Of a stretch of DNA of 64,000 nt, positions 2-52,235 are shown piece after piece. Each line of letters begins with the position of its first letter. Position 1 is the first letter of the stretch. This DNA is from Diphasiastrum complanatum (Eukaryota; Streptophyta; Lycopodiopsida; Lycopodiales; Lycopodiaceae). Location of the stretch: positions 43,611,546 through 43,675,545 of the forward strand of contig CM055101.1 of the NCBI GenBank assembly GCA_029204225.1, written 5' to 3'. The notes beneath the pieces were generated by a model that did no database searches, was not told where the DNA came from, and saw only the letters and a program-made list of their open reading frames with translations. Made by a program: the position numbers and the translations under genes.

Positions 2-357
2 AATGGTCCCAATGCAACTATTAGGAAAGATGAAAGTGGTCATTTCACCATTGACTCTACCAAGCTTTGGATGGATCAAAGTGATACATTTGTTTTTCCT
101 CAACAATATGAGCAGGTATATTTCTTTTATGTCTTCAAGATGTCTATGCTCCTTTGATTCAATATACTGCAAAAAAAAAGATTGTGTGTACCCAAGCAAT
201 TGTAACATAGATATAGATACTAATTAAGAGTCAGTGTTTATGGCATGGTAACATCGAATAATTATAGGTGGTCTTTCACCTCGACCGTTCAGATCCCAGT
301 GTTGGATTTCAATGCTCAGACTCAAATCCTTTTGTTAATGAGCATCATGAAAGTTGA
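2..357 (+). CDS. CACTA transposase C-terminal exons (DUF4216 region), cut by window edge
   Basis: The first 115 bases read open as a stretch starting NGPNATIRKDESGHF and ending DTFVFPQQYEQ, followed by a GTATAT donor. This lines up with the DUF4216 part of the CACTA gene further on in this window (11746-11886), which has GPNAIIKSDPSG..., SFDTLVLPRHCEQ and then an intron at the same codon. A second exon probably begins at 268 after TATAG, reads VVFHLDRSDPSVGF and stops near 357. DUF4216 is a domain of unknown function found at the C-terminus of plant En/Spm (CACTA) transposases. The rest of the gene lies left of the window. Seen: both open segments and the shared intron position. Inferred: the second exon. 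Confidence 0.6.
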
Positions 358-1059: not shown

Positions 1060-1560
1060 GTAGCAATATCCACGCAAATATCCACGCACAATACAAAGGA
1101 GGACGCGCGGGCAAAATAAATTTTGCATGAATATAGCCGTGGATTGGCGTGGATATACGCGTGGATATGGGCGCGTGGATTATCCACGCATGGATGCTCC
1201 ACTCAAGTGTCATTTCCAGCAGAAGATCAGCTGGATGTCGTGAAATTCAAACTACGTGGATTATCCACGCCAACTCCGACAACCGGCAACCGAGCAAACC
1301 TCTGACACCCGGAGCCGGAAATGAGAATTTTAATTTCGTGTGGATAATCCACACCATAGTAAGATTTTTTTAAAAAGGCTCGGCTTTCACGTGGATAGTG
1401 CGTGGCAAATTATCCACGTGTGGATAAGCCATGCGAAAATTTTTTATCCACGCGAAATCCAAAGAGCTGGGGCCGTGTCTACCGTGTGGATAATTTTTTT
1501 TTTTAATATCCACGCGATTAAGTCTCTGGACTTTGCGTGGATAATCCACGCAAATTTTTT
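1060..1560. repeat. Left cluster of GCGTGGAT / ATCCACGC motifs
   Basis: About fifteen copies of GCGTGGAT or its complement ATCCACGC (or one-base variants such as GTGTGGAT) occur in 500 bases, in both orientations. Several pairs meet head to head to form the 17-base palindrome GCGTGGATWATCCACGC: perfect at 1173-1189 and 1535-1551, nearly so at 1255-1270, and as a GTGTGGATAATCCACAC variant near 1339. Open frames across this block (peptides with repeated VWIIHA) are by-products of the repeat and not genes. Confidence 0.85.
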
Positions 1561-2339
1561 TGACCAAAAAAAAACATTTGGCACGAACCAAAATGTGGTT
1601 CGCTCCTAAACTAGAGGTCGACTTCCTTTTTCTCTGTTGTGTGAGAGAGAGAAAAAGAGAGTATAGATGGGAGTGAGGATGAGATGGGGATGAATGTGAG
1701 TGAGAAGATTGATAGTGTTTAGGGCTTTTAGTTCATTGATGGATGTTAATAGTATGTGTTTTGTGATCATAAGTTTGAAGATCTTTTTTTGTTTGTGATG
1801 TAGGCTTGGATATGAAAAATGAAAAAAGAGCTTTCATTGCAAAGGATTGAAAGATCAAGTGCACGCAAAAGGAAAAACAAAGATTGCAAAACAATGGAGA
1901 TACAATAGTAAATGTGAATTCACATTTATTTTGATTCATTTGATATTTAGTTGATAACTTAATGTGTTATCTATTGATGCATTCTATTGTGGTTTCCATT
2001 ACTTTCCATTGTGCTTTCCATTACTTTTATTTGTGCATTCTAGCATGCAAATCATGTGCTAAAATAGGTACATTGCATTGAATTCATAAATAGATACATT
2101 TGCATTCCATAGATGTGCATTAAATAAACTATACATTGCATTGAATACATACATTTGCATTCAATAGACTATACATTTGCATTCATGAATTGAAAATATA
2201 TGCATTCAAAATTTTTGCAAGAATGATGTGGTGCCAAAACATTATATTGATTGATTTAGAAAAAAGTACATTGAGAATAAATTCTCCCTTCCTACATTGC
2301 CTTCTACAAGGCCTTACATTTAATTTAAAAACTCTACTC

Positions 2340-3484
2340 ATCATCACTTCCTCCCTCCTCGCCTCCTTCATCTTGTAGGTGTATGTTGGTGTCCACATCT
2401 TCAAACTCCCCTTCGCTCTCATTCACGTTTTCTTCCACATTTTGCTCCTCAAAATTTTTCGCATGTTCTTCCACATCACAAACACTTGAAGTTGTAGAGC
2501 CTTTCTACAAAATAGAATCAAAGATTCAATTAAATTGAGATTAAAGTTACTTGTAAACCACAAAGTAAACAATCACAAGACAATAAAGATTAAGAGTTTA
2601 CGATTGGAAACAATCCATGGGATTCCATAAAAGCCTTAAGGCCGGCATATCCATGATCGTAACCTTGTTTGTACTCTGCGACGGTCATGTGTCTTCCAAA
2701 ATGACTAAGATACATTCAACAAAAAAACATAGTTTAGCAATACAATATAGTTTAGCAATAAAAAACATTAACAATCTCACTACAAAAATAGAATCATAGT
2801 AAAAAATATTGCACTTACAAATTGGGCCTCTAGATTGCCCCTTCCTCCCGATCCCAAGTGACTTTGGCCATGTTTTAAGAGCTTCTCGGTGGCGGCCCTA
2901 CGTTGTTGTTCATACTTTTGGGGATTGTTTTGCAACAATTCTCCTTTCACCTTTCTCCAATCCCTTTTGGAGCACCATCCAGGCTTCCTGGGATTCTTGG
3001 GATTCCTCACAACTCTTCTCATCAATTGCCTTTTGTTTTGAATCCAAAGGCACATTGAATTCAAGGCCCAAGTCCTACTAAAAGCATTGGATTGAGGGAC
3101 TTCATAATATAAAGTCTCTATTATTTTATTTTTGTCTTCAAGCGATTGGGAGGACCAATCGATCATGTAATCTTTACCAAAATATAAAACAACTAAATCA
3201 CGCAAACGGGCATGAACTACATTGCCACGCGTATTTTTTATAACTCCACCACGTGGATTAAGATCATAATACACACTACACAATTCCTGGGAAGGGACAT
3301 CTTTGGAAGCTCTTCTCTCGGATGATTCACCCGAAGAAGATAACACAAGATTTTTGATTCTATCTCTTTGTTGAGGAGATAGATTCTCAAACCACTCTTG
3401 ATTATATTCTTCAGGCTCCTCACAAGCTCTTCTCCTAGATGGTCTCCCACTTGACATTTCACTTGACCTACCACTTGAAGACAT
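2340..3484 (-). CDS. Plant Ptta/En/Spm-like protein, three exons
   Basis: Exon 1 (3484 to about 2819) encodes roughly 222 residues: a Ser/Arg-rich start, a central part with SPQQRDRIKNLVLSSSGESS and LRDLVVLYFGKDYMIDW, and a basic end WCSKRDWRKVKGELL...KLLKHGQSHLGSGGRG. The HLGSGG tail after a Lys/Arg-rich helix is typical of the plant Ptta/En/Spm transposase family. The donor is GTAAGT at 2818-2813. Exon 2 (about 2704-2605) reads HFGRHMTVAEYKQGYDHGYAGLKAF; exon 3 (about 2515-2340) is very acidic (VEENVNESEGEFEDVDTN...GGEEGGSDDE) and ends in a stop. With the obvious splice sites, exon 1 joins exon 2 out of phase, so either another site is used or the gene has a small frameshift. It may be a TnpA-like DNA-binding protein for the flanking palindromes; this is inference. 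Confidence 0.5.
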
Positions 3485-3489
3485 TGTAT

Positions 3490-3790
3490 CAAAGAAAAAC
3501 TTTAAAAGTTAGAAAGTAGTAGAGAATGAGAGTGAAAGAGTAGTGAAGACTTTTAGATTAGAAAAGTAAGCAATGACAAGAAAGCAATAGATTAATAGTA
3601 AGCAAGAACAAGCAAGATCAATACCAAGCAAGATCAATAGAGCACTCAATAGCAAGAGTAAGATCACTAGCAATGAAGAGCAACCAAAAGCAAGCAAGCA
3701 AGCAAGCAAGATCTATAGAGCTTGGATAGCAAGCAAGAGCACTAAACACTAGATTAGAAAAACCTATAAAACTTGAAAGCAAAAGAAGAG
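3490..3790. other. Upstream region with AGCAAG-type low complexity
   Basis: Between the start codon of the minus-strand gene and the right palindrome cluster lies a stretch dominated by AGCAAG, ATCAAT and GAGCAA words, with AAGCAAGCAAGCAAGC at about 3690-3710. It probably holds the promoter and leader of the minus-strand gene; I see no certain TATA box. Confidence 0.35.
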
Positions 3791-3834
3791 GAGCAAGAAT
3801 GCTCGCGAAAATGTTGTCTTATTGGCATTCAAGT

Positions 3835-3900
3835 TTCGCGTGGATTATCCACGCAGAAGTTATCCACGCGATATCCACACATGGATGTTCCACGCAGTTT
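3835..3900. repeat. Right cluster of the same palindrome
   Basis: The perfect palindrome GCGTGGATTATCCACGC at 3838-3854 is followed by TTATCCACGCG, ATATCCACAC and GTTCCACGCAG. The order palindrome, ATGGATG, TCCAC also occurs in the left cluster near 1173-1203. The cluster sits about 350 bases upstream of the start codon of the minus-strand gene, so it could serve as a protein binding block both for transposition and for transcription. Confidence 0.8.
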
Positions 3901-3989
3901 TTTTTCCCTCTCTTCACACGTGAGAGGGTCCCTTACATGGGCTTGCATGCTTTAAATGTCATTCAATATTCTTATAATCTTTTCTAGAT

Positions 3990-5330
3990 TTTATAAGAAT
4001 ATTTTATCGTAGGATTTTACATAAAATATATTTTTTAATATGATGGAACATAAAAAAATCAATTCAAAGATCGTTATTGTAGTATTTAATTGTTAAAACT
4101 AGTTCTATATCGTTATATATTTTATTTTTCTTGAGATTTGACATACAAGGCAAAATCATGAGATAAGAAATAGTACATATTATTATTCAACATGCAATTT
4201 GACAAGTTTTTTAAGATTTTATGACATAATATTATGTCAAATTGGTGATGTCATAAAACATAGTTTATTAATAATCTAGGTGTCATAGATTTGATATAAT
4301 TTGATGACATAATTATATGGCCAAATAGAAAAATTTTGCTTTTGTTATGTGGCCTCTTAAATGGTTGCATGAGGTCATTTAGTTTTAGGATCAAAAGCAT
4401 TTATGTTATATTGAGGACCTTAGTGATATGTGACCTATATGATATATCTTTTTAATTGTTGGTGTGTGACCTATATAACCTTATATGAAATCATAGTAAT
4501 TAGTTGAAATATCATTTAGCATTGTAATAAAGATGTTGATCAATGGTGTGCTATCTAGTATATGATTGCTTGACATTGTCCAATTGCTCGTCTTTTCTTT
4601 TCGATTCAAGGAACATCATCTTGCATACAAAGCAACCATAGATAGAAAGGGCAAATGCATATTGCTCGTCATGAGATACCATGGCACACTAGGCCAATCC
4701 AAAGAGATTTATCCCTGACTAACACGAGCCAAGTATTAATTAATCAAATGAGTGATTGAATGGGCAATGAATCAATTGAGTATATGACTGATTGTTTGAT
4801 TTTGATTATTCCATCTTGAAAGAACGATTAAGTGAGATCATCACTCATCTTGGACAAGAGTTCAAACTGAAAGCTTCGAACATTGACTGCCATGTGGTCT
4901 TTAAATTAGTTGAGATAGGCCTACGCACACTGTCTACTGATGTCTAACATTTGTCAATATGAATCTCATTTTGATTGCTCGTCATGTGTTGCCCCACCCA
5001 AGCAATTTTCTTGATAGCAATGTTACTAGAATATTAGATTTACATTAAGCATAACTAGAATATACATGGATTAGATGTTGGCATGTCTTTAACAAATTTT
5101 ACTATATGTGTTCAGTACATATGGTCTCATAATGACTACTTATGATGGGGTATAGAGTATCTGGCTATAGTGTATATGACATCGACGATGTCATCATCAT
5201 CAGATAGTGATTCATCTCATGATTGCAGCAGTAGGTATATATTGTTATTGATATTGACATCAATTGCACTTTATTTGTTATTTGAATATGAGTGTATAAT
5301 TTTTCTTGCAAATTTATTCTTACAATGATA
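3990..5330. other. A/T-rich intergenic stretch with an 18-bp palindrome
   Basis: No gene is visible. At 4222-4239 there is a perfect palindrome, TGACATAATATTATGTCA, and related words (GATGTCATAAAACAT, GATGACATAATTATATGG) recur up to about 4320, suggesting a small fold-back repeat or decayed MITE. At 4798-4945 a plus-strand frame stays open for about 48 codons but matches nothing I recognise. Confidence 0.4.
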
Positions 5331-5331
5331 T

Positions 5332-5910
5332 TTGATTGGAATTATGAATTCTAGGAAAATTATTGTACCTCCACGTGATTTAGAGAAAGAAAAAAGAATT
5401 GAGCTCTATTATAGAAAAAAGGAGCAAGCAAGACTAAAGTACAATGAACAACTATTGACTGGTTCATCTTCAAGCTCTTCCATCAGGCGACGTAGACCTC
5501 CTATTGATCCATCACATGTATGTATATTGATTTATGTCACGATTTTTTTATTTGTAATAGTGATGTACTCCGATTTGGTTGAGAATTGTGACATAGTATA
5601 TTGCTCTTTGGAAAGCCAAGACACCACTCCATCACAAATGAAGGTTGCAAATATACTAAATGTACAAAGACTATTTTGTCAATTTTTGTCACATGTTAAA
5701 ATTTGTCAATTTTCACTTGAATGACACTGAAAGAATTTGTGCAATTTGCAATTGGATTATTGGACTAGTTTCAACCAGAATATGATGAGAGGATACCATG
5801 TACATGCACATAATGCAAAGGCCTTAGGATTTGGACAAGGAGGATTGTCAATGATCATATTTGGGCCAATGGAGTGCACACAGAGAATCCAAGAGTACGA
5901 GAGGTAAACT
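5332..5910 (+). pseudogene. CACTA transposase N-terminal part with decayed transposase-associated domain
   Basis: A first open block (5344-5516) is charged and Ser/Arg-rich (IIVPPRDLEKEKRIELYYRK...GSSSSSSIRRRRPP) and ends at a GTATGT donor. A second block at 5775-5905 reads EYDERIPCTCT, a stop, CKGLRIWTRRIVNDHIWANG. The Cys-x-Cys...Cys-Lys-Gly spacing followed by the His-x-x-x-x-Gly stretch fits the transposase-associated domain found at the N-terminus of plant CACTA transposases. The in-frame TAA shows decay. It probably belongs to the same gene as the Tnp2 region starting near 8.4 kb, now spread by (GA)n tracts and other insertions. The join to the first block is inference. Confidence 0.5.
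5560..5660 (-). pseudogene. Copia RNase H relic (about 30 codons)
   Basis: Read on the minus strand this segment gives FATFICDGVVSWLSKEQYT followed by MSQFSTKSEYITI. That is the WLSKKQxxxSLSSxEAEY region of copia RNase H, and the DNA is clearly similar to the copia at 55560-55640 (AGAAGCCAAGATATCACTCC versus GAAAGCCAAGACACCACTCC). It is a tiny isolated relic lying in a non-coding part of the CACTA gene. Confidence 0.6.
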
Positions 5911-6065
5911 CTTTATAGTGTTTTTTGGAAATGCTTTAATCTTTGACCCTTATGACACTTCAAGTATAGTTTGGCCAATAAATATTGATCGATAGGATGA
6001 GTGCCACGATACTTTGAAGTTAATCTCTCACTTGCTTCCAATCACCCATAATAGACTCATTTACA

Positions 6066-7375
<1,310 letters not shown>

Positions 7376-7405
7376 TGATACATCTAATATTTTCAACTTT
7401 TGTAG

Positions 7406-8000
7406 AAGAAGGAACATAAGTTGGTTTTAAGAAAAAGAGTCGCAAGAGAGATCGAGAATATTATTAATAGGATAAAACATATGAATATTGATTTTGGATC
7501 ATCATTGGCCTTAGACGATGCTCTTGTTGATGATGACCCCTTGCATGATATAATTAGTTCATCAATGCCTTGTGATTCAATCCATGTCTCCAAATCTCTA
7601 GAACGTTGACCACAATTGGGGTGATTGGCATGCTTTGTGTTGTCACCCATGGAGGATGCAAGTATATGGCTTGAATTCAAATGCTTGTTCTTTAGAGGAG
7701 CAACGCATGCAAGGAGGCAACATCTCAAAGGCAAATCATACATACATTGATGGACGTCCAGATGTGCATGGAAACATTGCTACATATATAAATAGTTCCA
7801 TTGGCTACCCTCTATTGACGAATTGTGATTTTGAAGAACGCACCAATGGAAAAGAAGAGTATTTTACTAGGAATGTAAAGGGCACTTATGTAATGGTCTG
7901 TTCCACTAGATCTATCAGGTTTGGGGAGGAATTGTTCATCAAGTATAGTTTCAATCGTCCTCTACCCAAATATTTGCAAAAGACAATAATTCAAATGTGA
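7406..8000 (+). pseudogene. SET-domain-like segment within the CACTA gene
   Basis: After TTGTAG a frame opens as KKEHKLVLRKRVAREIEN and runs to a stop at 7607; a second frame at 7635-8000 reads YIDGRPDVHGNIATYINSSI, TNCDFEE and VCSTRSIRFGEELFIKYSF. The order GNIAxYINSS, NC, then GEELFIKYSF matches the C-terminal half of a SET domain (GNxARFINHS, NC, GEELxxDY), the catalytic fold of protein lysine methyltransferases. The canonical INHS is INSS here and the final DY is KYSF, so catalysis is doubtful. Part of the end (GATCTATCA...TCAAGCATTG) is repeated at 8288-8335. A frame change near 7600 suggests a pseudogene or unrecognised intron. Whether it belongs to the transposon or to a captured host gene is unresolved. 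Confidence 0.55.
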
Positions 8001-8409
8001 AGATTTGAATTTTGTTGATATGCAGAGATGTATAATCCATGCATCTTGATTGTATTTGGTTTGTGTCATTAAATATGTCAAATGTTAGGAGCATTATTCG
8101 TCATTTGCCTAGATGTTTAGATAAGATAATAAGTGAGAGCTAATGAATGTGAAATTCATTAATATGTAAATATGTAGAAGCATGCAATTCTTTGAGTTCA
8201 TTGAATATTAAGAAGTTGAAAAGAAAAATGCTCCAATAGATACATCGGTATGTTCATACTTTTATATATTCATATGCAACATTTAGATCTATCAAGTATT
8301 GGGAGGAAATGTTTATCAAGCATTGTTTCAAACTACTTCTTGTTATTTTGGTATATAGAATTCTTCATCCTCATTTAGCGTTGGAGACAATAATCCTCAT
8401 AATGGTCGA

Positions 8410-11122
8410 CGTAGACGATGAATGCAATACAACGGTCCTCATATAAAGCAATTACCTCGTCATCTATGTCAAGCCTTAAAAGAGATGATGGAAATAGTTG
8501 AGCACATTAATCAAGAGACTAATGCATCTGAATCTAGATCATCTAGATCTACTTCTTCGCAAACAAGTTCCAACGATGAAAATGAGCTTCCAATGAGTGA
8601 TGAATTTGAAGTCATGGGAGACATGTTGGATGATATGTACGAGAACAATAGTGCAGCTAGACACAATGACCAAGATGAGGAGGCACTTTTGTCTAAAGAA
8701 GAAATGAAATCAAAGACCGCATTGTATCCTGGAGCAAAGACATCTCGTTTGGCGACTTCTCTACTTCTATTAAATCTTCAAGCCAAATATAGATGGAGTG
8801 ACCAAAGCCTCACATCATTATTTGAGTAATTTTTTTTTCATTTACTTGTCATGTTTGCTTTGAAACAAAACTTACAATTTGGACATCTAGTGAGAATTTT
8901 TTTACAATGACTTCTTTTGTCATGTACAGACTATTGAAAAACAAAATTCTCTTAGAAGAGAATGTCATGTCTGAGACAAGAGATGAGGCACGAAAGATGT
9001 TGTCTAACATCGGGATGGACTACAAGCAATATCATGCATGTCCAAAAGATTGTATTTTATATCGAGGAAGGTACGAATCACTCAAGAAATGTCCCATTTG
9101 TGATACTCCTCGACATAGAGATGATTTGCAAGGGGCAACCATTCCATGCAAAGTTTTATGACATTTTTCAGTAATTCCATAATTGTAGCGTTTATTTTGT
9201 TGTAAACCTCTTGCACAAGTTATGGACTGGCATGCACATCATACCTCTACGGATGGGATGATGAAGGTACCTTTAGATTCACCTGCATGGAAACACATCA
9301 ACAAAGAGTATCCAGGCTTTGCCAATGAGTCAAGAAATGTGAGATTTGGTCTTGCAACATATGGTGTGAACCCCTTTGGTGTACGAGCAACTATGTGGTC
9401 CATTTGGCCTGTTTGCTTGGTAAATCATAATATTCCTCCTTGGTTGAGTAAAAAAAAAGGGACACATTATGATGGGACTTCTAATTCCTAGCCAACGCAA
9501 GGTTAAGAACATGGATGTGAATCTTGAGCCGCTTATTGATGAGTTGGAAAATTTGTGGAAGGGGATAAAAGCATATGACATTTCGCACCCCTTACATGAG
9601 AGGGAATTTACACTACATGCCATTGTAATGTGGACAATGCATGACTATCCAGGATTAGGTGATTGCTCAGGTAATCATTCAAACAATGTCTATCTTGTGT
9701 ACATAGGAGTTTGTTTACAGTTACATACAACTAGTAACTCCTGACATCTATATGATATACTACAATGGCTATAATTATTCCTTGACATATACTTTTCTAA
9801 TAGTGATTGATAGTATCCATTTGTTGGGCAGACTTTCAAACGACTGAAAAAATGTTTGTTTTTTTGTGCGGGCCAAATCTTGTGGAAACATACTCTTATA
9901 GTCTCAAAAAAGTGGTTTATGAAAATAATTGTAAATACTTGCATGAAGGCCATCCATTTAGAGACACTCATAGAAGAGGTTTTGGAGGAAGAGTTGAGAG
10001 AGAGATGCCTCCAAAGAGGATGTCTGGGAGAAATCTCAAGCAAAGCCAATCGATGAAATGAAAAGATTATCTATATTTCATCATTTGGAATATTGGAATA
10101 ATCTTTTGATTAATCACCTACTTGATCCCATGCACATATTTAAAAATGTGGGTGAATCTATTTGGAAACACTTGATTGGTGAAAAAGATACCATTGTTGC
10201 AAGGCACGATCTAAAAGAATCAAACATCAAAAAAGAATATTGGATAAAGGATGGTGAAGATCATGCTCCAAAAGTACCTTGGACATTCACTAAGAAGGAG
10301 CTTAACCATGTGTGCTCCATTATTCATGACATTAGAACACCAACTAGTTTTGCCCATTCTCTACGGTCATCATTCACGGTGGATGGAAAGTTGCAAGGTC
10401 TCAAATCTCATGATTGGCTAAAGATGATTCAATTCATCTATCCATTGTCAATTCGTGGGTGCTCGTCAAAAGATATTTGTGAGACCATATACAAACTATC
10501 AATCATTGTCAGGTATTTACAAGTACTGGTGCATTTTTTTATTTAGTATTTATTGACTGGAAATTCAAATAGACATAAAATGGATTGAATATGTTGCAGA
10601 TGGATGTGTTCAAAAGAAATCCACAAGCTGGATCTTCGCAAGAGACATGAGCATATGGTGGAGATTGTGTACATGTTTGAGAGATATTTTCCAACTTCCA
10701 TCATGGACTCAAAAGTGCATTTATTGGTGCACTTGGTTGAAGAAGTTTCTATTGCTGGTTCAGTGCACACTAGGTATAAATGCATAAATTTTCTTTTGCA
10801 TGTGTATTTAAACTAAATCAATTGATACATGAACTCATTAAATAAAACACTTATTTTTAACCATTTGTGACTTTTTAGGTGGATGTTCTTTATGGAAAGA
10901 TACATGAAAATCTTAAAAGATTTTGTGCGTCAAAAGGCAAGGCCTAAAGGTAGCATGTCAAAGGGATGGTTAGTACATGAATCTCTCTTTTATGTTATTG
11001 AAATTTTGCACCAACTACATCCATCTGCTCCACTATTGTGGCGTGATGGGGAAGCCGAAGAGGTAACGAGTGAAAAACCTCAAGGGATGGGTAAGGTCCA
11101 TAGGTTGTCACCCTTCCAATGA
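8410..11122 (+). pseudogene. CACTA (En/Spm) transposase, Tnp2 and DUF4218 regions, degraded
   Basis: Blocks in order: 8422-8829, acidic linker ending LYPGAKTSRLATSLLLLNLQ; 8907-9491, YHACPKDCILYRGRYESLKKCPICDTPRH, then MDWHAHHTSTDGMMKVPLDS and YGVNPFG...WPVCLVNHNIPPWL, the core of the Tnp2 (Transposase_21) family; 9469-9680, VKNMDVNLEPLIDELENLWKG and HDYPGLGDCSG; 9955-10510, LLDPMHIFKNVGESIWKHL; 10600-10780 and 10880-11122, the DUF4218 region (MVEIVYMFERYFPTSIMDSKVHLLVHLVEE, then FMERYMKILKDFVR). Introns separate several blocks. At least three in-frame stops between 9161 and 9200 and a frame change near 9470 show that it is dead. This is the DDE-type transposase that cuts at CACTA ends in autonomous relatives. 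Confidence 0.85.
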
Positions 11123-11151
11123 AAAAAAATTTCTACATTCATGCTTTATTA

Positions 11152-12259
11152 TTGTGGAGTTATAGATAAATGGTTAGACCTATATGAAGAAGAAAAAAAA
11201 GAGAGGGACTTGTCTAGAAAGCGCCACTATAGAATAGAGGTAGACACATGGCCACAAGTTCACATGATCTTAAGCCATTGCCCAAGCAATGCACTATAGA
11301 GTGGATGCATGACACACTACAAAAAACAACAAAAAGAGGGACAAAAAATATCAAACGCAGAATGGGACTTTGCAAGAGGATGCGAATGGAAGGTATTATT
11401 CTTTAGATACTTTATTATTAGAACATTCTTGTCTATAACAATATTTGTTTAATCATTTTGAAACACCATGTTCATTCACAGTGATTATTTATAAGATTCA
11501 TGTTTGTCACGTGGCAGTGCAAAATGTATAATGCTATATGGGCTTTTGGTTTTCACTTTTGTGCTGAAAGGATTGATAACAAGAGACGCACACACGATTG
11601 TGGCGTAATAGCATCTTTCCAACAAGAAAGTCAAAGCAATGCATGAGATCGGAATCCCATCTCAGGAGACATAGAATACATAGGAACTATACGAAATATT
11701 TATGATCTGTCATTTGGTGAAAGTGGACACTATTTTTTATTTGATGTGAAATTGTTCAAGGTAGTTTGTAGAGGGCCAAATGCAATCATAAAATCGGATC
11801 CAAGTGGAGTTTTTGTGATTGATTCATCAAAAACATTGAGCATGGAGTCCTTTGACACGTTGGTGTTGCCTCGTCACTGTGAGCAGGTGCACATGCTATG
11901 CTATCATGTTTTTCATTTTATTGCAAGTGACTTCAGTATTTGAGTTTTCGATATTTTCTAAAATAGTGATTTTTGCAGCTGTTTTTTCAACCAGATCGAC
12001 TAAACAAGATATGGTGGTTTGTAGCTCAAGTTGAACCATGTTCACGACGAGTATTTGAGGGTGCAAATGTTGAGAATGAAATGGAAACTTTCATTCTAAC
12101 TATGAGATTGAGCTACCTAGAGATGTAGTAAATCGTCAAACCATACTTGAAGCACCCACATCCATAGATGTTGAGAATAGAAATTCTAATAGTCATCAAG
12201 ATGACGAAATAATTTTTGAAAGTGAGAGTGATGATGAAAATCATCTAAGAGGAGACTAA
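11152..12259 (+). pseudogene. CACTA transposase C-terminal part with DUF4216 and acidic tail
   Basis: The gene continues with an exon reading DKWLDLYEEEKKERDLSRKRHYRIE...ISNAEWDFARGC (about 11160-11392). The DUF4216 exon (about 11519-11886) reads FGFHFCAERIDNKRRTHDCGV...SFDTLVLPRHCEQ, and an intron at 11887-11978 leads to LFFQPDRLNKIWWFVAQVEPCSRRVFEG. A one-base shift near 12085 then leads to a Glu/Asp-rich tail (DDEIIFESESDDENH) and a stop near 12259. Stops near 11277 and 11643 confirm decay. The exon-intron junction after CEQ is shared with the fragment at the left edge of the window, so the two copies belong to related families. Confidence 0.75.
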
Positions 12260-13520: not shown

Positions 13521-14337
13521 TGTTGGGGGTATTCCCAACAAAGTGTAAATAAATAAAATCATCTAATAAAATGTGTTGCGAGGGCATGGCATCCTGCATG
13601 TATAAGCCCATGGCCCAATGAGCACGCAAATAAAGTTGTAATAAAATAAACATGACTTGGGCCTTGGAATTGAAATAAAACAATGTCATTTTTAAACCTA
13701 GAGATTACTTTTTAGAGTTGGGTCCAAATTGGGACTCACATGAATCTTGTGATTTCTAATGTACTTTTGGTGGACCCTTGGATCAAGTTGGGTCCAAGAT
13801 GAATGGATAGGATCATTGTGAATATTAGCCAATAGGATTGAGGGGCAAGGGCCTTCCCCATTTTATGAAAAGGCACCATTTTTACACTATTTTCATGCTT
13901 AATGAGAAGGAAGAAACTCTACCAATTTTGGAAGAGAAGCATCCATTTGCAATTCAATGCTTGCTATTGCTCTTGTTGTTTTCAATTGCTTTCAAGTTCA
14001 TGCTTTTTGGTTTCAATAGTTTATGTTTATCCTTTAGCAAGTAAAATGTGCATTTGAGCTAACATCCACCCTCACTCTCTATCTCTCTCTCTCTCTCTCT
14101 TTCTCTCATCTCTTCTCAATCTCTTCTTTTCTATCCCTTCCCTTCACCCAAATCATGATGAATGTTAGTGTAGAGGAGTAGAGTTAAAGGAGAATAGTGC
14201 TAGTGGTGAGTAGAGTTAAGGGAGGAAGTAGAAAACTACCTAAAAGTAGCATCTATGCATAGTTAGGTACCTATCTAGTGATCTAACTCTTGTTGACAGG
14301 CGGAAGGGCTATACTACGTGAGATCTTCGACCCTACA
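13521..14337 (+). repeat. LTR of plus-strand gypsy-type element
   Basis: The unit starts TGTTGGGGGTATTCCCAACA, itself a small inverted repeat, and ends CCCTACA directly before a primer binding site, giving 817 bases with TG...CA ends. A TATA-like TTTTATGAAAAGG lies near 13860, preceded by CCAATAGGATTGAGGGGCAAGG, which is close to the LTR near 62.3 kb (CCAATAGGATTCAAAGGCCAGG). A (CT)n tract lies at 14080-14105. No second copy of this LTR is in the window. Confidence 0.7.
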
Positions 14338-36602: not shown

Positions 36603-37610
36603 TGTCTCTGAATACAAAGCCTTGCTAGCTTACGGCCCCTCGCTTGACAAACATGTTCGCGAACTCGAACATCTGAATACACGAAACACGAAGAGTTTTG
36701 CGAATACAAAAGTCAACGAAGACAAAGACCAACTGTTCACGAACACGAATGATCCACGAACGAGATTCCCTTGCGGTCCTATACGAGAGAAAGACGGACG
36801 AGATAAATGAAACCAACGGTGGAAATGAAATCCGTTCTGTTCTCACGCCCCAAGAAGTACCACCAGAGATCACGCAAGTACTAGAAGTACAGACATCTGA
36901 CCTGATGGCATGATGTCAGCAGATACTCCCTAGGTCGTGGCTAAACTGCCATGCTTGTAATTCTCTGGTTAGTTGTAGATGGTTAATCACTCTAATCTTA
37001 GATTTGCATAGAGAGACTGTACTTACTGAATAATACTTGACATATATCAATAGGATACACAATGTGTAACCAAGTAAGAAGAACAAGAAGTAGTCTGATG
37101 CAAGTAAGCAATCAAGACAAACACAAACAGAAGCTCCGTCTGTGTGCGAGAAGATAATTCTGTCTAGGATCAGAAGATCCAATTGTCTGCTAGTGAAGTG
37201 AGACTACTACTCGTGAGAGAGCCATGCTTCTCTCACGCCAACGCATTGCGTGGATTCGCATGTAGTGCCCTGAAGAAATCAGAGAAAATCAATATAGATT
37301 ATTTTTCTGGCTGTGGCTGATCTTTGATGTCGAATGCTTATGCTGTTTATTTTAATATGTCTGAGTTTTCTTGTTCCCTTTGAATTCTGCACCTTGGTTG
37401 AAATGAAGTCAAATGCTATATTAATTTTATGAACGTAGATCAGTAGTACCTGACTACCCTCTGGAGGATTGTAGGAGTGTTTCAGCTGGCAGTGCCCAGT
37501 GAACGCATCTAAACTCCATCCGAATCTCGAAAGAGAGTCGTGAATGTTTTGCAAATTTTTCTTCTCACGATTCTCAACAGTCGTATCCAAGCACTGCTCG
37601 ACTCACAACA
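36603..37610 (+). repeat. 5' LTR of the plus-strand copia
   Basis: It begins TGTCTCTGAATAC and ends ACTCACAACA, followed by the primer binding site. It differs from the 3' LTR at scattered bases and small indels only (for example, 37545-37560 has extra TTTGCAAATTT). Confidence 0.9.
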
Positions 37611-45369: not shown

Positions 45370-46575
45370 TTTTAGCCACTTGATTTGTTGTCCCTTGTGA
45401 AGGCACCCTTTAGGCATCGCATTTGTCCTGTCGAAGTTCGAAATGAGGCTATTGCCTTCTTCACAATGGTCTCTTCTCTCCTCGAGAAGATCCATGGAGC
45501 CTTTGGGAGGACAATTGAATTCCCCACCGTTTGTGGTCATAAATCGGCCATCTTTTCCACTTCTTTTAAGTAATCTCATGTGTCTTTTTTATCTTTCGCA
45601 CCAGTCAAGTGCTCCCAAATTATGCTCTCGACATTCTTGAATATGTGCATCGGGTCCAAAAGATGGTTTATAAACAATTTTCCCCAATATGGAAGTTCAT
45701 GAAATATTGATAACCTCTTCATGCCAGGAGGGAGTCGCACTAGATCTTGATTGGATCTCCAAATTTGAAGCCAATCACTTGTCTACAATATTATTAGCAA
45801 ACAAGCACACACATTTAATTGAGATTATCATTAGAAGAGATATAAAGAGAGTAACTATTTAAAAAATAAATGATATTAATTGGCCCAAATATGTATTGTA
45901 CCTTCATGGAGTGGGGACGTTGACCAACAAGCCCATCACGCATAGGGTGATCGGGTGGAAGGTATCGAGTGTGGCCCTCATAAACCATCTTTCTTAGATG
46001 TTGTGAGTGATGTGCTTGCAAATACTCGCCACAAACGGGGCATGCATTGTAGCCACTACTTTGGAGCCCTGCATTGAAACAAAACAACCGAGTTCATTAT
46101 GAGTGTAATGTTTGAATTGAAATTTTTTTTGTGAACAGTAGACTTAATACCATGAATCTAACCAATAACAACAATATCTCACCGGAACATTTCCCATATC
46201 CAGGAAAGTCGTGCATCAAGATCCCCTTTACGACAAAATCTCTTTGTGTGCGTGGTCTTGATATATCGGTCACTTGAACTCCTTGCCATAGAATCTTTAG
46301 CTCATCTACCAAGGGAGCCATATACACGTCCATATTTTTGGCCTTGTATTTTTTCGGGATAAGAACGGTAAGCATTAGGTGCCTCTTCTTAATACTTAGC
46401 CAAGTAGCATCCACATGCTTCCACGCTGGACAATCGGTAGGGATCCTCATAGTATAGTCCGATGAAACGATTGCTCGAATGCCATGTCATAAGCTCCACT
46501 ATGGACTTGCACTTAAACATATGGCATATCCTAGGTATGATGGGAAAATGTCTTACTACTTTGGCGGGTATGGTG
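45370..46575 (-). pseudogene. CACTA Tnp2 transposase fragment
   Basis: On the minus strand from 46563: VVRHFPIIPRICHMFKCKSI, ELMTWHSSN, MRIPTDCPAWKHVDATW, then, after a deletion of the DGxNPFG block, LSIKKRHLMLTVLIPKKYKA, KNMDVYMAPLVDELKILWQG, MHDFPGYGKCSG (46450-46190), YNACPVCGEYLQAHHSQHLR, MVYEGHTRYLPPDHPMRDG (46050-45900) and RLPPGMKRLSIFHELPYWGK with LLDPMHIFKNV (45740-45640). It is the same domain as at 9-10.5 kb but more divergent. It is bounded by the copia LTR on one side and by the LTR at 46576 on the other, so it was probably the target of both. Confidence 0.85.
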
Positions 46576-47716
46576 TGTGGTACGTTTGGTGTGTTGCTTA
46601 ATAGTGTTCATAACACTATAGCGGGGTTTTGGTATGATTATGAAGCCAGTCATAGGGTTTCTAGTTCGGATATTGCCATATATTATACTAGAAGGTAACT
46701 TAAGTTTGAACCCATTCACCTCATAAGTAATCCATCTCAAATATTCTTTTCAAAGATATAAATGTTTTTCATTTACTAATTCTTGTATTGTCTCCAATCA
46801 AGCAAACTTAATTTTATTCAATCTTTGATGCAATTGCCATGATTTATCTACGACTTGACCATCTTTTTCAATGGTTTTATCATGACAATGTATGTACTTT
46901 TGAAAATATATAATATATATATGGCTCTAATGGTGTTTTTTAACCACTTTGAGCGGTAGCTTTTCCATGTTTTTCAATGGTTTAGCAATATGGGATTTAT
47001 TATACTTGTAAATTGCCATTATGTTTGTTAAGCATAGAGCATATTCGGTAAACCAAAACATAAATTGAAATATATTTTATGCTGATTGTTTCTTACTTCA
47101 GACAGTAGCTTAGTGAATTATTACTGACTGTAAAACTATGTTTCTTACTGCAAAAGGTAAATCCATTAGTCATTTTTTACTGCATTAAACATTTAGTATA
47201 AATAGACTAATCAGAGTCCATTCTTTAATTCCATTCATAACCATTGAAATAATACACTGAATAACATTTACTCATCTTCTATATGTATTATGAAGTAAAT
47301 GAAGACATGAGTCAAAACAGAGATGAGCAATGAAAATTACCTCAGTCGTTTTACTCTGACTTAAGTTTCAAGAGACTGTCCATAGGCTAAGGTCTTTTCT
47401 TCAACATGCATCCGATTCTTTAATATCTTTATTTTTGTGGCTCATTCACTTTATTTCCAGACTGCCGGTTCCCATCTTAAATCTTTGCCGGGTGATCTCT
47501 TTCACTAAAAGAGATTTTTGAAACAAGAAGAAAGGAGGGAGGCTGAGTGCTGGAGCGCGACAGTGAGGGAAGAAGGACCTCAGGTGAGGGAGAGAGAGGG
47601 AGCGCGATAGCAGAGAGGGATCGCAGGAGGAATGGAGAGCGCAAGCAAGGGAGGGATAGATTTTGAAGAGGAAGGGGTGGACAGAACGCAGATGGAAAGC
47701 GCAGTTCTAGAGAGTA
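46576..47716 (-). repeat. 3' LTR of the gag-only element
   Basis: It matches 50617-51762 base for base apart from scattered substitutions and short indels (for example, TTTATCTACGACTTGACC here, TTTATCTACGAAAGCTTGACC there). A TATA-like GTATAAATAGAC lies near 47198 on the plus strand, which is opposite to the gag direction. Confidence 0.85.
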
Positions 47717-48190
47717 GGTGAGGAGAGAATAGGAGAGGTATCGCTGGAGGAAGGGAGGAAGCAACTCAACGATGGAGATATCATATTATATACATCTACA
47801 TCATCATAATTATATCAATTTATTTGGATATTTCTTATGGTAATTATCATGCAGCATCTCATATGTATGATGACTTAATATCATATTGTACCAATTATTA
47901 CAAATAATCTTGTAACATTTGAAACCATTGTTTTTTTTGGACTTTCTTTGATATTCACCATTTTTTTCATAGATTTTATTTTGAATATCTTTAGCTCTTT
48001 TGTAGTTATAATCACTTCTCCACCTCTTATCATGCTTTCTTAGTATTTCGTCAGTTAGAGATTTTAATGCTCATATGTAGTTATATTTTTCTGAGTTCAT
48101 AAAATTTTGATAGAGTATTATAATTATAAATGATAACATAATACTATATTGATATGGTAATACATCCAAAGATTCATTTACCATATATTA
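47717..48190. other. Internal region 3' of gag, A/T-rich
   Basis: Between the gag end and the 3' LTR the sequence is A/T-rich with no frame. Next to the LTR it is purine-rich on the plus strand (GGTGAGGAGAGAATAGGAGA), which is not where a polypurine tract is expected for a minus-strand element. Confidence 0.4.
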
Positions 48191-50616: not shown

Positions 50617-51762
50617 TGTGGTACGTTTGGTGTGTTGCTTAATAGTGTTCATAACACTATAGCGGGGTTTTGGTATGATTATAAAGCCAGTCATAGGGTT
50701 TCTAGTTCGGATATTGCCATATATTATACTAGAAGGTAACTTAAGTTTGAATCCATTCACCTCATAAGTAATCCATCTCAAATATTCTTTTCAAAGATAT
50801 AAATGTTTTTCATTTACTAATTCTTGTATTGTCTCCAATCAAGCAAACTTAATTTTATTCAATCTTTGATGCAATTGCCATGATTTATCTACGAAAGCTT
50901 GACCATCTTTTTCAATGGTTTTATCATGATAATGTATGTGGTTTTGGAAATATATAATATATATATAGCTCTAATGATGTTTTTCAACCACTTTGAGCGG
51001 TAGCTTTTCCATGTTTTTCAATGGATTAGCAATATGGGATTTATTATGCTTGTAAATTGCCATTATGTTTGTTAAACATAGAGCATATTCGATAAATCAA
51101 AATAGAAACTGAAATCTATTTTATATTGACTGTTTTTTTACCTCAGACAGTAACTCAGTGAATTATTACTGACTGTAAAACTATATTTCTTACTGCAGAA
51201 GGTAAATCCATTAGTCATCTTTTACTGCATTACACATTTAGTATAAATAGACTAATCAGATTCCATTCTTTAATTCCATTCATAACCATTGAAATAATAC
51301 ACTGAATAACATTTACTCATCTTCTATATGTATTATGAAGTGAATTAAGACATGAGTCAAAACAGAGATGAGCAATGAAAATTACCTCAGTCTTTTTACT
51401 CTGACTTAAGTTTCAAGAGACTGTCCATAGGCTAAGGTCTTTTCTTCAACATGCATCCGGTTCTTTAATATCTTCATTTTTGTGGCTCATTCACTTTATT
51501 TCCAGACTGCCGGTTCCCATCTTAAATCTTTGCCGGGTGATCTCTTTCACTAAAAGAGATTTTGGAACAAGAAGAAAGGAGGGAGGCTGAGTGCTGGAGT
51601 GCGACAATGAGGGAAGAAGGATCTCAGGTGAGGGAGAGAGAGAGAGAGCGCGACAGCAGAGAGGGATCGCAGGAGGAATGGAGAGCGCAGACAGGGGAGA
51701 GATAGATTTTGAAGAGGAGGGGGTGGACAGAACGCAGATGGAAAGCGCAGTTCTAGAGAGCA
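50617..51762 (-). repeat. 5' LTR of the gag-only element
   Basis: Plus-strand start TGTGGTACGTTTGGTG, end CTAGAGAGCA. It contains the same TATA-like GTATAAATAGAC (near 51240, plus strand). The U3 end is purine-rich with an AGAGAGAGAGAG run near 51637. Confidence 0.85.
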
Positions 51763-52235
51763 GGTTTGGTTCTACATCTGCTCATCTGATGCCTGCAGGA
51801 ATCACAAACTTAGACAACCAATTTATTTGAAGAACGTCTACAATGGGCTTCCAGTCGATTCCAGCAAAGGGTAACCAATCCTGTCATAATTTCAAAGTTT
51901 AGATGCTAAGTTTAATAACTTGAAGTCATTGAAGACTTGGCCATCTTCAAGGACTTCCACAAAACTTGCATTTAGAACAAGTTTGCAGATATACATTACC
52001 TTTTCAATAGTCTGCAGAAATACACTATGTTTTCAATAGCTTCGGTGTCAAGGATCTTACTAGTAGTATACTTAGCTAGTTTGCAAGCAATCTAACATCA
52101 CTCAAATAAGCAGTAAAGAGAAATCACACACCAACCCAAGAGAACACTTCTAAACTATATTAACAAAAGAGACTGAAAGGTACATATACATAGTCTAATT
52201 TTTGTGGGGTATCACTACATGGCAGTTTGGTCCCC
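51763..52235. other. Unassigned gap
   Basis: No gene or clear element. It contains two copies of TCTGCAGAAATACA / TTGCAGATATACA near 51985-52025. Confidence 0.35.

Follow-up and report, generated by a model that had tools for sequence, protein, structure and literature searches.

Plant CACTA transposons provide the closest described parallel to the locus considered here. As reported for these elements, TNPA recognises subterminal repeats required for excision, the role of transposase falls to TNPD/Tnp2, and the repeat motifs, which comprise a GC-rich and an AT-rich part, differ widely (PMC2613891). Soybean Tgmt* is described as having four repeats on one side, able to form 2 palindromes, and 24 on the opposite side, able to form 12 (PMC2613891). 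The subterminal repeats of a second soybean element, TgmR*, are said to be able to form stem-loops and to be less methylated in a mutable line (PMC4219821). Autonomous CACTA elements are reported to carry both genes, and most CACTA elements neither (PMC8195511). A demethylating effect has been reported for Spm TnpA, similar to that of the Arabidopsis VANDAL protein VANC, which is described as binding short motifs that cluster in non-coding DNA, frequently as tandem repeats (PMC5735166).

In the window (the whole 64-kb stretch of DNA that was analysed), two arrays of one short site flank a single gene, arranged like CACTA subterminal repeats, as had been predicted. We propose, with a probability of about one half, that these arrays are cis sites bound by the protein whose gene lies between them and that the whole corresponds to the subterminal repeats of CACTA elements together with a regulator like TnpA. 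The locus has in common with Tgmt* and TgmR* a short motif with GC-rich and AT-rich parts that occurs in both orientations, inverted motifs that form palindromes, a link to CpG and methylation, and nearby Tnp2 sequence. Its arrays are also unequal, with 20 and 5 sites as compared with 24 and 4 in Tgmt* (PMC2613891). Whereas these features are shared, the unit here is a perfect palindrome of 17 bp centred on a single base pair, and CACTA ends, a 3-bp duplication, a Tnp2 gene between the arrays and a Transposase_24 match were not found. With its exact palindrome of 17 bp and a layout that holds only a regulator, we regard the locus as a variant of the CACTA-like arrangement; on the features tested, the locus does not class as a CACTA element.

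The original prediction had held the palindromic nature of the repeat to be unlike CACTA elements. This was too strong: soybean CACTA elements are already described as having subterminal repeats that form palindromes (Tgmt*, PMC2613891) or stem-loops (TgmR*, PMC4219821), so a palindromic repeat is not in itself a novelty. In the literature searched, the 13-base palindrome core had no occurrence in either of two forms. Among the matches listed for GCGTGGAT in the transposon literature, none was a plant CACTA paper by title, and the same was true of the literature match for CACTA combined with subterminal, palindromic motif and transposase.

Paired arrays of a 17-bp palindrome

The half-site GCGTGGAT occurs exactly 15 times in the 64-kb window, compared with a mean of 0.41 in 100 dinucleotide shuffles (shuffle maximum 4); 11 copies lie in 1068-1551, three in 3838-3869 and one at 37248. 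When one mismatch is allowed the number rises to 55. These comprise 20 in the left array (1068-1551, both strands; 11 exact and nine one-mismatch), five in the right array (3838-3895; three exact and two one-mismatch), four near but outside the arrays (1804, 2977, 3251 and 3720) and 26 scattered sites, which never exceed three per kilobase. The sites at 2977 and 3251 are one-mismatch copies within coding exons, which hold no exact half-site. About fifteen half-sites had been anticipated on one side and four or five on the other; the dense left array is there, with a count of either 11 or 20 according to the mismatch allowed, and the estimate for the right side agrees with the five found. The most frequent 8-mers of the left array reach 11 copies, as compared with a maximum of three in 100 Markov-1 shuffles. 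All 25 array half-sites, a set chosen at no more than one mismatch, share an invariant TGGA.

Perfect 17-bp palindromes start at each of the three places predicted, 1173 and 1535 in the left array and 3838 (3838-3854) in the right, with 0.02 expected. The left array also contains degenerate palindromes at 1254 (one mismatch), 1338 (two) and 1418 (three), so that successive starts are 81, 84, 80 and 117 bp apart. Half-sites fall in both orientations, again as predicted, and five plus/minus pairs stand at the palindrome offset of 9 bp. None of 20,000 random placements reached five such pairs, a loose control in that array repeats may share descent. Three further facing pairs occur at 23, 28 and 24 bp, and some adjacent half-sites lie in direct orientation, 10-15 bp apart. 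That facing dyads recur five times at an offset of exactly 9 bp favours recognition by one dimeric protein, whichever one that may be.

The near-regular spacing of the left-array palindromes (81, 84 and 80 bp) is what a decayed tandem repeat would give, and it lends something to the view that a small palindromic satellite or array overlaps an unrelated gene by chance. Tandem Repeats Finder, however, reports no unit of about 80 bp, the sequence between the palindromes is unrelated by eye, and a separate array of the same palindrome stands across the gene. We rejected an ~80-bp satellite on these grounds and consider a chance overlap the least probable of the explanations weighed here. An inverted repeat, CGAACCA/TGGTTCG, adjoins the left array at 1584-1602 (by eye).

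The gene between the arrays

The gene between the arrays occupies 2334-3484 on the minus strand, and its model, predicted from sequence, has exons at 3484-2819, 2673-2602 and 2504-2334. The predicted protein of 302 aa has a serine-rich start and an acidic end. Exon 1 contributes 222 codons inside a stop-free frame of 242 codons; in 300 base-shuffles of a 3-kb stretch, such frames reached at most 154. Splicing from the donor at 2818 to an exon start at 2704 breaks the frame, and 27 splice choices between exons 1 and 2 keep it, including the one used. We chose the donor at 2818 with an exon from 2673, which ranks sixth on a crude score, because this model retains all of exon 1 and its GTAAGT donor. 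Exon 3 was placed by eye. The need for an acceptor before 2673 to keep the frame open, with 26 other frame-keeping choices available, counts against the proposal that this protein is the binder of the arrays.

Searches with the gene and its protein likewise weigh against that proposal. Pfam returned no family for exon 1 or for exons 2 and 3 (E up to 1), nor for two joined gene models and a sub-stretch (E up to 10), Transposase_24 (PF03004) included, and the label "En/Spm-like" given to the gene in the original prediction is not borne out. TnpA sequences reportedly differ greatly from one species to another (PMC8195511), so the Transposase_24 negative is weak evidence. NCBIfam gave one row, at E 0.1 and far below its cut-off, and PDB gave two, the better of which (E 0.21) is an oxygenase; we take all of these as chance. 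The protein may resemble TnpA in residue spacing. A relative or second copy was also sought in other collections: in IMG/VR the pattern scan gave no match and the protein scan confirmed none of one pattern match, and in GTDB the protein scan confirmed none of 67. These empty results say little because the collections are viral or prokaryotic.

Between the arrays, no stop-free frame other than that of the gene exceeds 120 aa, the length of the largest one overlapping 1060-3905. No Tnp2 (PF02992) was seen there in the Pfam searches, which covered the gene's exons. The predicted absence of Tnp2 holds only for the interval between the arrays; outside it, Tnp2 sequence lies on both sides.

It is also conceivable that the gene belongs to the host, or has been domesticated, with a homotypic cluster of host-factor sites in its flanks. 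The right array lies at promoter distance, ~350 bp 5' of the gene's ATG, no transposase domain was found in the gene, and the core TATCCAC resembles what we take to be a MYB-related box. The larger array, however, is at the opposite end of the gene, 0.8-1.3 kb beyond its stop codon, and the surroundings consist of Tnp2 sequence and frames that appear by eye to be retroelement-like. The precise 9-bp dyad offset also speaks for one dimeric protein, without saying which. We give a host gene very little weight.

CpG content and proposed action of the arrays

Each intact half-site contains one CpG. The ratio of observed to expected CpG is 1.35 in the left array and 1.49 in the right, compared with 1.1 in 357-1060, 0.54 in the gene and 0.46 in the whole window. 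Six of the 11 one-mismatch half-sites within the arrays, the set to which this count was restricted, differ by a CpG transition (C-to-T or G-to-A), an outcome with a probability of 1e-4 under equal substitution types. This excess fits methylation decay, which would be expected of sites that carry methylation in the silent state. It is also compatible with a protein that tolerates those bases, or with copies of shared descent.

One type of site flanks one gene, and the window holds no further array of it, which suggests that the gene's product binds the arrays. We propose that the protein would bind GCGTGGAT-W-ATCCACGC as a dimer, with one subunit per half-site, and that single or spaced half-sites would be bound more weakly. 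Occupancy of both arrays could then hold them together for a Tnp2 transposase supplied in trans. The same protein may also regulate the promoter of its own gene and oppose methylation, since the short array lies ~350 bp 5' of the ATG and the intact half-sites hold CpG.

The last of these roles brings to mind an anti-silencing module like VANC, in which the protein binds a motif in non-coding DNA and removes methylation. VANC is encoded by its element and is reported to bind short clustered non-coding motifs of that same element. The VANDAL transposase is of the MULE type, and a VANDAL-type element need not have long terminal inverted repeats. The clusters here are non-coding, as VANC motif clusters are reported to be (PMC5735166), and they are CpG-rich and lack detectable ends. 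Against this, VANC is a different protein whose motifs differ (YAGTATTAY; AGTTGTCC and AGTTGTAC), with no match to them seen here, the gene has no Pfam match and is accompanied by no other frame of more than 120 aa, and the neighbours are Tnp2. We therefore consider a VANC-like module improbable, and it is hard to separate from the CACTA-like reading because Spm TnpA is reported to be similarly demethylating.

Regulators and sites are said to have diverged strongly from one CACTA element to another and among species (PMC2613891, PMC8195511). With an exact, easily recognised palindrome and a compact candidate binder of 302 aa, this locus would make it directly testable how regulator and site co-evolve and what part CpG methylation plays in this.

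Tnp2 sequence on either side and the search for ends

Two Tnp2-type sequences border the arrays. Copy A, a C-terminal piece of a Tnp2-type CACTA transposase at 2-115 (plus strand), lies 5' of the left array. In a tblastn search inside the window it is 55% alike to copy B over 38 aa (E 2e-9), and its DUF4216 match is below cut-off (E 0.036). Copy B, a broken Tnp2-type gene at 5176-12125 (plus strand; start codon and end approximate, by eye), points away from the arrays. It matches PF02992 (Transposase_21) at 9189-9491 and 9448-9741 and PF13960 (DUF4218) at 10589-10813 and 10871-11119, and an in-frame stop codon was noted by eye at 5811. With the end of copy A on one side and the start of copy B on the other, the arrays and their gene lie between two Tnp2 genes. 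These genes, together with frames judged by eye, suggest that the DNA is probably from a plant. Long (GA)n microsatellites occupy 6050-6330 and 7180-7410 within the region of the broken gene.

This setting raises the alternative that the gene and arrays are the regulatory half of a larger CACTA element, paired with copy B (divergent) or copy A (convergent), and that the opposite end of this element has been lost or falls beyond the window. In that case the unit would differ and the mechanism would be unchanged. Such an element would account for Tnp2 sequence ~1 kb to the left of the arrays and 1.3 kb to the right, and autonomous CACTA elements are reported to carry both genes, although most CACTA elements carry neither (PMC8195511). 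No second GCGTGGAT array, however, was found past copy B up to 64 kb, and copy A seems to have a different, if weak, direct-repeat array of its own. An array placed between two genes would also be unusual. On balance we think a larger element unlikely, while granting it a real chance of being correct.

The array next to copy A is of a GACCC type (about TCCGACCCAATGTAAA, period ~19 bp), runs over 411-600 on the plus strand, 3' of copy A, and is weaker than the palindrome arrays. Seven of the window's 49 copies of GACCC, a word picked after the sequence had been seen, fall within these 190 bp. Tandem Repeats Finder reports a period of 19 at 500-578 and a repeat search three copies; an unbiased 8-mer test of 357-1060 showed no excess (three copies, compared with a shuffle maximum of four). 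Perhaps these are candidate subterminal repeats of the element of copy A. The occurrence of a different array after copy A suggests that copy A would have relied on a separate motif, the palindromic arrays being part of something else. CACTG-type sequence at 893 is a candidate end for copy A, and CACTA/CACTG sequences at 4687 and 4928 are candidate starts for copy B; we set these candidates aside.

The original prediction looked to an outer boundary with a CACTA-, hAT- or MULE-type duplication, and none was detectable around the arrays above control regions. No CACT[AG] occurs in 601-1068, and 3' of the right array the first [CT]AGTG has its last base at 4425. Thirteen CACTA-like pairs start below position 14,000; two have a 3-bp duplication, and none of the 13 starts left of the left array or brackets both arrays. 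An ungapped inverted-repeat scan of the two flanks scored 9, compared with a shuffle mean of 9.02. When terminal inverted repeats and duplications of 2-11 bp were scanned together (starts 881-1070, ends 3890-4119), the best score outside the arrays was 10, equalled by 16 of 40 control region pairs; within the same scan, hAT/MULE-type terminal inverted repeats with an 8-9 bp duplication did not rise above control. The lack of a terminal inverted repeat or duplication in these scans counts against the proposed CACTA-like arrangement.

Two inverted matches to the left flank of 12/13 bases, 1030/9774 and 1017/15639, were judged to be chance, as about two are expected by our own estimate. Helitrons end in a terminal hairpin followed by CTRR; a hairpin at 3906-3928 has no CTRR after it (by eye), and a Helitron was rejected.

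A bolder form of the CACTA-like reading would make the locus a mobile unit of ~2.9 kb that carries a regulator and nothing else: a gene whose product, a dimeric DNA-binding protein outside the known families, has its palindromic site arrayed on both sides of the gene, with no CACTA ends. Such a unit would be moved by the Tnp2 of other elements and would spread by controlling access to the borrowed transposase. We hold this to be doubtful. If ends are found, the locus would reveal whether a regulator can move independently of the transposase.

Farther along the window, a third, fragmentary Tnp2 remnant (Transposase_21 by Pfam) lies at 45815-46486 on the minus strand. Two direct copies follow at 46576-47719 and 50617-51765, with pieces 92-99% alike and ~4.04 kb apart, and these are perhaps the LTRs of a single retroelement.
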